A DNA stretch of 64,000 bases from Nitrosococcus wardiae (GTDB lineage: Bacteria > Pseudomonadota > Gammaproteobacteria > Nitrosococcales > Nitrosococcaceae), in contig NZ_CP038033.1 in the NCBI RefSeq assembly GCF_004421105.1, positions 639,659-703,658 on the forward strand, written 5' to 3'. Below are positions 14,109 through 30,177 of the stretch, in pieces. Positions within the stretch are counted from its first letter, which is position 1. Every line of letters begins with the position of its first letter. The position numbers and the translations under genes are program-made. Under the pieces are notes generated by a model. It was not told the DNA's origin. It ran no database searches and saw only the letters and a program-made list of their open reading frames with translations.

Positions 14109-15013
14109 AATATTGTCTTTACCCCTCCAATAGCATACTTCTTCGCCGCCTCCTAATTAAGGCACACGAAATGAAGCTTTGTTTGGGAGACCCTAAATTA
14201 TGGTTCGACAGTTGCAGACCCACTCGGGCTTCTGGCTCAACACCAAAACACAAGGGAAAACACTTAGGATGTTTTAGAGACCAGAAGAGAAGGTCAGGTC
14301 AGATAATCCTGCCTAAGAAATAAATTTAGGATTAAAGAAAAAGCAGTAACCAAAAATATCTTAACCTATTACCAAGTAGGAAGCACCCGTTCCATCCAAA
14401 TTCCGCAGCCATTCTAAAAACAAAACCAATGGTTACCATCACAACTTGGATTACGATAAAAAACTAAAATATTATCCGCCTCAAGAGAATTGCTTTACTA
14501 AACTTAATGTTTATAAGCAAAATTTATACCAAAATATGCACACCAAGAAAATCAAAATCTAAGAGATCTTTCCACAAGCAAAACCCGAGAAGAAATGGGT
14601 CATTTCACTGAATGATTCAGGCAAATGACCAAAAATAACCCCTTTCGTCAACCCACTCACAGCTAATATTTTGGAGTTCCGCCATGACTGATTTCAATTG
14701 TGTTCCAACAAAACTTCATCAATCTGGAGAATTCGCGGTTCCTCGCGGTCCTCGACGAAGGGGTGACCTTGGTCTTGGGGTCTTTACCGCTCCTCGCGCT
14801 TTCACTTCGGGTGCTCCCCACCCTAGGCTCCGAGAGCAAGAAAATCATAGCGCCAATTTATGGCAAAACGCAACTCATGTGGCCCTCGCGCTCGGCGCGC
14901 CGTTTCACTTCGCGACTTTGCTAGGGGAGCGCCTAACCTCCATGAGGCTCCAATGCAAATATAAATGTTTCCCAATAAAGACTGCTAGGTGATTTCAGCC
15001 CTCAAGGAGTCCC
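14109..15013. other. Long gene-poor region upstream of the TonB2-type operon
   Basis: About 900 bases hold no gene I can support. The part 14240-14660 is AT-rich and contains a near-perfect palindrome, listed separately. The part 14730-14940 is GC-rich and open in several frames on both strands. None of those products has a ribosome site with recognisable family features. The promoter of the TonB2-type operon must lie in this region, but I could not identify it or a Fur box. Confidence 0.5.
14598..14630. promoter_or_regulatory. 33-bp two-tiered palindrome
   Basis: GGTCATTT (14598-14605) pairs perfectly with AAATGACC (14623-14630). Inside, CTGAAT and ATTCAG pair around a single G. Only two non-matching bases on each side separate the tiers. 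No T run follows on either strand, so it looks more like an operator or recombination site than a terminator. Confidence 0.45.
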
Positions 15014-29119: not shown

Positions 29120-29448
29120 CTCGGCCCCGGAGTTCTCCATGGATGGTGAACGAGACCCCCTAGCGAGAGAGCGAAGGCCGGTAACACGGTGTTAACTGAA
29201 GTGTTTTTCCGTATAATTGCCCCCAGGCTAGGGCGTGGTCTCAATAGGGAGACCCGGGGGTTGTTAGCAGAAGACCGGCCATGATGTAAAACCCGACCGG
29301 CACATCCATTGTGGCTACCGCGAGGAGGGTGGGAAGTTAGACCTGTGGAGGGGCACAGCCTCCCGACGATAGCCCGGCAGGACCGGGCCACAATAGGGGT
29401 CTCTGGGAAGCAGGAAAAACCCAGTGAGCAACCAGGCTTAAGAAAGCA
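29120..29448 (+). ncRNA. HEARO / IscB omega-RNA-like structured RNA without an IscB gene
   Basis: No gene fits this GC-rich block, but it folds strongly. A 7-bp helix pairs GGCCGGT (29176-29182) with ACCGGCC (29274-29280). It encloses GGTCTC/GAGACC (29237-29242 with 29249-29254) and CCCCC/GGGGG (29220-29224 with 29256-29260). An 8-bp helix pairs ATTGTGGC (29308-29315) with GCCACAAT (29387-29394), enclosing CTGTG/CACAG and GCCCGG/CCGGGC hairpins. A further CTGGG/CCCAG hairpin lies at 29403-29424. The architecture and the GGTAACACGGTGTTAAC segment recall HEARO RNAs, the guide RNAs of IscB nucleases, which sit directly upstream of iscB. Downstream here is only an unrelated protease gene. Boundaries are approximate, and the family assignment is from memory of the consensus. 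Confidence 0.6.
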
Positions 29449-29601
29449 ATGCCCATCAAAACCAAAAAAAACGCTCCAGCTAGTGCAGTGGATGGCAGGA
29501 GGATCCTTTACATTTGTCAACCCAAAAATAAAACAGCTATAATTCTTATTGCCTTATCATTGGCGATTCCCAAAATAACCCACGACACAAGGAAGCATTT
29601 A

Positions 29602-30177
29602 ATGGTCTTGCGCTATTCCGCCTGGATTATGCTGATTTTTTCCCTTTTAGCCGGTGCCGCTATATCAGCACAGGAGAAAAAATCGCCGTCTGTGTTCGGA
29701 TGGATAGAATTGGCTAAATTTGTGGACTGGGATACGGTCACCAAAGTCAAAATGGATACCGGCGCACTGAGTTCCTCGTTACATGCCACTGATTTGGAAT
29801 ATTTTCAACGTGACGACGACGAATGGGTGCGATTCACAATCAAAGTCGAGAATCAGCGTGGGGAGGAAGAATGGGTTCAACAAACCTTTGAACGGCCGGT
29901 TTATCGTTTTGTAAAAATCATTAGCTCGAATGGTGACGGTGATCGCCGTCCTTCTGTACTAATGAAACTTTGTCTCGGGGGTGAAATTTACGAAGAACAG
30001 TTTACTTTGAATGACCGCAGTGATTTGACCTATCCTATTTTGTTCGGTCGACGTACCATTGAACACCTAGGCCTTATCGATGTTACCCGCACCTTCACGA
30101 GCCGCCCCCATTGTGACACCGATGCACCTGTACACACCATTGAAAATCGAAAGCTGGACGAAGACATTGGGATCTAA
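29602..30177 (+). CDS. Secreted retropepsin-like protease-family protein (PF05618 type)
   Basis: From the ATG at 29602 the product has 191 residues: a signal peptide (WIMLIFSLLAGAAISA), then a domain with GWIELAKFVDW, KMDTGALSSSLHAT carrying the DTGA aspartate of the retropepsin fold, and YPILFGRRTIEHLGLIDV. This is the family often annotated as ATP-dependent zinc protease or RimK-associated. Similar exported copies are frequent in gammaproteobacteria. A longer frame starting at 29449 exists, but it runs back into the structured RNA. AAGGA sits at the right distance from 29602. Confidence 0.85.
   Translation: MVLRYSAWIMLIFSLLAGAAISAQEKKSPSVFGWIELAKFVDWDTVTKVKMDTGALSSSLHATDLEYFQRDDDEWVRFTIKVENQRGEEEWVQQTFERPVYRFVKIISSNGDGDRRPSVLMKLCLGGEIYEEQFTLNDRSDLTYPILFGRRTIEHLGLIDVTRTFTSRPHCDTDAPVHTIENRKLDEDIGI

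Follow-up and report, generated by a model that had tools for sequence, protein, structure and literature searches.

We identify positions 29120-29448 of the window (the whole stretch of 64,000 nucleotides of Nitrosococcus wardiae DNA that was analysed) as almost certainly a tnpB-less element of the IS200/IS605 type carrying a TnpB omegaRNA scaffold, since this scaffold is homologous to the 3' ends of tnpB genes and the left end is one shared with tnpB genes. Intact members of the family open with a left-end (LE) hairpin followed by a promoter-like site and close with a RAGATH-18-like TnpB omegaRNA scaffold and a right-end (RE) tip; many have a structured 5' RNA domain in between, and none contains an ORF. 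The window copy, as judged from its sequence, is a 3'-truncated, non-autonomous member, i.e. a PATE/MITE-like stand-alone omegaRNA element, and the block holds no protein-coding gene, as an earlier reading made from the sequence alone (hereinafter the sequence-only reading) had observed. The explanation that we favor, with a probability of roughly 0.6, joins this identity to the proposal that the omegaRNAs of the intact copies work with a TnpB supplied in trans. The window copy itself is probably a relic, most likely inert though perhaps still transcribed, because it has lost the RE and the guide junction, so that it does not have a complete scaffold followed by a guide. The following parts were recognized in it:

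29129..29175, + strand: left end (LE), with a subterminal hairpin formed by GTTCTCC (29132-29138) and GGTGAAC (29145-29151)
29189..29217, + strand: promoter-like site, with a perfect -10 box TATAAT (29212-29217), a weak -35-like GTGTTA (29189-29194) and a spacer of 17
29222..29312, + strand: central 5' RNA domain, with hairpin C1 (29237-29242/29249-29254, GGTCTC/GAGACC) and helix C2 (29275-29278/29297-29300)
29315..29424, + strand: RAGATH-18-like TnpB omegaRNA/reRNA scaffold, with helices P1 (29318-29322/29328-29332), P2 (29342-29346/29410-29414), P3 (29350-29354/29399-29403) and P4 (29372-29377/29383-29388)
29425..29436, + strand: right-end (RE) remnant, with the probable deletion junction CAAC at 29429-29432, placed by alignment with intact copies and with the empty site of a sister species (L065)

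The left end of the window copy also stands directly before tnpB in the same genome (L044, L046, L047, L050 and L051) as well as in other genomes, and the arms of the LE hairpin vary among copies with their pairing kept (GTTC/GAAC, GCCT/AGGC, GTGC/GCAC). Alignment with other copies reveals that about 26 bp present in sister copies are missing just inside the window LE. The promoter-like site was recognized by comparison with the consensus and was not reported by a stricter promoter scan; at the equivalent place the tnpB element L044 has TTGTTT-17-TATAGT. The innermost pair of P1 is broken in the window copy, and comparison with intact copies, including those of the sister species G002, shows that the RE tip, which spans about 65 bp in the latter, has been lost along with the guide junction. 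Scored for the traits of PATE-type elements, the window copy has the LE, has no ORF and is without the RE. The bases upstream of the element, which are TTGA or TTGG in most other copies, are CCGG here (flank CCCCGG).

The orthologous site in G002 (L065) is empty: its left flank aligns with that of the window locus as far as CCCC and its right flank from CAAC onward, and the window locus is also devoid of some flank bases present at the G002 site. Given that CAAC is found at both break points, the comparison suggests that the RE was lost by a short-repeat deletion between CAAC repeats. In this G002 locus (L065 2600-3100) the interval separating the rhodanese and Zn_protease genes is also longer by about 700 bp and probably holds an additional gene on the - strand.

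The best plausible Rfam match of the block is RAGATH-18 (RF03064), scoring 23.6 bits across 29342-29416, with E 0.011 when 121 nt were searched, and alignment to this model recovers the RAGATH-18 core in the window, namely helices P2/P3 and the GAAGCAGGAA motif. The gathering threshold of 44.9 is not reached by the window or by any other copy, the sister copies and tnpB-linked relatives scoring 24-36 bits (top 36.2). RAGATH-18 is the scaffold of TnpB reRNAs and has been reported only with IS607 TnpB; as 64% of these RNAs adjoin an IS607 tnpB, RAGATH-18 without tnpB has precedent (Ren et al. 2024, PMC11061315). The likeness of our element to it extends over the P2/P3 architecture, the CCUGUGGAG...GAAGCAGGAA core and the conserved 5' and 3' flanks, and the element's homologues likewise sit at the tnpB 3' end. 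The differences are: 1) the TnpB linked to the element is scored higher by the IS200/IS605 model than by the IS607 model, and there is overlap between the scaffold and the tnpB ORF; 2) scores are 23.6 bits in the window and at most about 36 in relatives against a gathering threshold of 44.9; 3) many copies of the element stand alone with an extra 5' domain. A search of the N. wardiae genome with the block aligned part of it within the 3' end of the tnpB gene in L004/L044, at 74% over 98 nt, and gave several short hits to the first 45 bases of the block, and L073 and L094 have scaffold segments in common with it; all homology of the block to tnpB 3' ends lies on the + strand. To collect further members we used R1, a covariance model trained on the scaffolds of 12 stand-alone copies, which scores 112.5 bits on the window scaffold, itself a member of the training set.

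The sequence-only reading had described the structure of the block by two long-range helices. Both are indeed perfect (29176-29182/29274-29280, GGCCGGT/ACCGGCC; 29308-29315/29387-29394, ATTGTGGC/GCCACAAT), but the alignment indicates that they are not kept in paralogous copies, and the conserved structure is a different one, comprising C1, C2 and P1-P4. Across the 12 stand-alone copies 95.6% of the scaffold cells pair, against at most 51% in slid versions, and two-sided changes occur at five scaffold pairs, where shuffles give 1.8 (five or more in 7 of 500); in the central domain (alignment A4) 97% of cells are paired, two-sided pairs number five against 1.5 in shuffles and the covariation score is reached by 0 of 500. 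None of these shuffle counts is a probability, because the copies are related to one another and the helices had been picked visually from the very alignment that was scored. Within the stand-alone copies P2 is nearly invariant and P3 shows compensatory changes, while P4, registered by hand, varies as CCGGG/CCUGG, CCAGG/CCUGG, GCCCG/CGGGC and GCUUG/CAAGC and is paired in all but one of the copies listed. The block contains 10 distant 7-base complements against 2.4 in dinucleotide shuffles (reached by 0.3%) and three distant 8-mer complements against 0.5 (reached by 3.7%). Its - strand folds better than shuffles (z -3.09), and its whole + strand no better (z = -0.26); despite the latter, chance structure is ruled out by the paralogues and the covariation.

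When the window copy is compared with its nearest G002 counterparts, identity is 93% in the central domain, 84% in the core and 61% in the promoter region. The central domain was not seen in the tnpB-linked L044, L073, L078, L094, L074 and L079, and no Rfam family matched it. DNA-pattern scans for this 5' domain in genome_contigs and viral_contigs, collections that may leave out close relatives, gave nine matches, mostly in unrelated phyla and none with an R1 match, which we read as chance.

Other copies of the element, for which the sequence-only reading had proposed a search, are present in related genomes. In G002 blastn recovered seven, at different loci with unrelated gene neighbors and no tnpB, most of them with the RE tip AGCAGCGAACTC, and R1 detected nine tnpB-less scaffold matches; the intact G002 copies have both LE and RE palindromes, contain no ORF and are multi-copy. 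One stand-alone copy was found by blastn in G003 and several in G005, a member of another genus, where two are without the central domain. R1 gave 80 matches in six genomes of the family, with no tnpB just upstream of 45, an approximate count as proximity was taken from thresholded lists (same-strand tnpB matches in the 600 nt upstream, taken from a list at E<=1e-20 plus, in the N. wardiae genome, Pfam hits) and some loci, e.g. L196, keep tnpB remnants. Since L050 and L196 represent tnpB-deletion intermediates with such remnants, the stand-alone elements are probably derived from L044-like elements that lost tnpB through an internal deletion. In a draw of 274 genomes of the class, seven had R1 matches at E<=1e-4, the N. 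wardiae genome included, and tnpB homology was absent from 25 of the 27 loci fetched from the other six, some of these loci being short. One of these genomes, G204, has twelve scaffold matches, with tnpB alongside none of the nine fetched; about 20 nt before the scaffold, several of its copies have a promoter-like site that agrees with the consensus at 10-11 of 12 positions (e.g. TTGACT-16-TATAAT), and its congener G073 holds a tnpB-linked version of the same RNA that is 87% identical. DNA similar to the block was not found in the phage and plasmid collections.

The candidate nuclease gene lies elsewhere in the N. wardiae chromosome. L044 is an intact tnpB element with a 423-aa TnpB frame containing PF01385, PF07282 and PF12323, in which direct reading of the sequence reveals the RuvC residues D (GLDLG), E (AIEDLN) and D (HDRDIA). 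It scores 346 bits as IS200/IS605 against 161 bits as IS607, both under the 'exception' cut-offs of the models, and its nearest natural solved relatives are the ISDra2 TnpB entries (PDB: 8bf8 and 8h1j). The omegaRNA of ISDra2 likewise comes from the tnpB 3' end and RE; its nuclease gene is, however, in cis, whereas window-type elements are without one. The L044 product is this genome's best candidate for a TnpB acting in trans. Among viral contigs its relatives are all distant, none exceeding 41% identity.

In IS200/IS605 TnpB systems the first guide base directly follows the right end (PMC10711439). Since the scaffold is RAGATH-18/TnpB-like, the guide is expected 3' of the element and not, as the sequence-only reading had it, just 5' of about 29120; in the window copy this 3' junction is deleted. 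The intact copies could supply guide RNA in trans, as scaffold, RE tip and promoter-like site are all present in them. We propose that transcription of these copies would continue past the RE, so that flanking sequence would serve as the guide, and that, by analogy with known systems, this RNA would load a TnpB encoded elsewhere. TnpB is thought to aid the persistence of its own transposon. Extrapolating from published TnpB biology, cutting of the vacated donor site by TnpB would then lead to retention of the element.

Several observations weigh against this explanation: 1) RAGATH-18 scores are below gathering everywhere and the TnpB is of the IS200/IS605 type, against the reported IS607 link; 2) G002 has stand-alone copies yet no close cognate TnpB was found in it, the best full-length match having 47% identity, alongside one 75% fragment; 3) no Y1 transposase was found with this LE and RE together, the only candidate being the fragmentary locus L148, near another solo element; 4) the window flank CCCCGG is without the usual TTGA/TTGG. 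The main rival, to which we accord a smaller though appreciable chance, is that these are simply decayed tnpB/IS remnants, in which the omegaRNA is kept only for its overlap with a right end needed in transposition and has no RNA function in stand-alone copies. Elements consisting only of ends are known, such as the PATE-like element of Halanaerobium with 28 nt of LE, the last 58 nt of tnpB and 160 nt of RE (PMC7290912). Our elements resemble such PATEs, i.e. non-autonomous IS200/IS605 elements, in joining an LE hairpin, a tnpB 3' end and an RE without an ORF, and in occurring as several copies in sister genomes; the truncation of the window copy and the tnpB remnants at part of the 45 loci (L196) also fit decay, and pairing of DNA hairpins at IS ends can itself be selected. 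The compensatory changes, however, affect scaffold helices and the central domain, well inside the ends; the latter domain is conserved above promoter or core between the window and G002; and solo copies of another family, that of G204, have a promoter-like site near the scaffold. Window-type elements further differ from PATEs in that they keep or add a promoter-like site and a covarying 5' RNA domain, and in that, in the genomes examined, tnpB-less scaffolds outnumber tnpB-bearing ones; the window copy differs also in being without the RE tip.

A much less probable alternative is that the host has co-opted the stand-alone RNA, for instance as a guide of the TldR kind, serving a catalytically inactive TnpB, or as the leader of the downstream gene. 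This gene, with a conserved start at 29602, encodes a PF05618 Zn_protease, a family with a retropepsin-like fold, in agreement with the protease named by the sequence-only reading; as that reading also noted, no iscB lies immediately 3' of the block. Retention of the core helices and the -10 box in a copy with both ends decayed would fit co-option, but no inactive TnpB was identified, the orthologous G002 site is empty, the guide junction is missing and the Zn_protease gene has another promoter-like site at 29514-29543.

The proposal of the sequence-only reading, an orphan HEARO RNA serving a distant IscB in trans with its guide 5' of about 29120, retains hardly any probability and is refuted for the block by the absence of a HEARO match (none in the window at gathering, none in the block at E<=10, and an empty covariance scan at every threshold tried) and by the homology of the scaffold to tnpB 3' ends, its LE also preceding tnpB genes, even though the genome holds an intact IscB and a weak HEARO-like locus without a nearby iscB. 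What survives of it is the notion of an OMEGA-type RNA without a nuclease gene, derived from an IS200/IS605-type element; the nuclease family is TnpB and the guide side differs. The IscB that it had anticipated does exist, in L001 (C1:3400849-3404026; 439 aa, RRXRR + HNH, NF040563 at 429 bits), where it has its own HEARO-like RNA just upstream (49.8 bits, below the Rfam threshold). The HEARO model matches one further place, L002 (C1:2334916-2335146, - strand; 31.6 bits, below gathering), with no iscB in 3 kb of flank, which is possibly a real orphan IscB RNA.

Returning to omegaRNAs acting with a TnpB in trans, if copies with the guide RNA but without tnpB are more numerous than those with tnpB, which is the case in the six genomes surveyed, TnpB would be exploitable in trans and guide RNAs could spread alone, a plausible step to separate guide-RNA loci. 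Such copies fall below the Rfam threshold and could escape searches for nuclease genes; a description of this stand-alone variant was not found in the part of the literature that our searches covered. Should the trans reading hold, one might tentatively see here a TnpB-parasitic, self-sustaining class of mobile guide RNAs, in which promoter-driven RNAs would recruit TnpB made elsewhere and restore themselves at vacated sites, and in which a previously undescribed 5' RNA domain, absent from tnpB-linked copies, might give an advantage of its own (e.g. TnpB capture or RNA stability), an extension that we hold to be doubtful at present.

Further stand-alone types were encountered alongside these elements. 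One G002 locus (L025/L057; G002:C2:2819388) is a chimera in which a window-type copy has a solo element of another type within, or fused to, its 5' part. A third stand-alone RAGATH-18-like type with its own upstream repeat is represented by L107 (C1:209692-209760 of N. wardiae, - strand), L114, L119, L126, L127 and L130; no tnpB was found within 1.5 kb of these RNAs, and they resemble the ends of the tnpB element L048. The window itself contains a second, apparently complete stand-alone omegaRNA element at 14671-14950 on the - strand, with the LE hairpin GCCTCATGGAGGTTAGGC, the RE tip GGCGGAACTCCAA and no ORF. It has an R1 match (14724-14826, 43.2 bits) and belongs to a sister type, akin to the tnpB elements L046/L047 and the solo copies L102, L108, L111 and L116.
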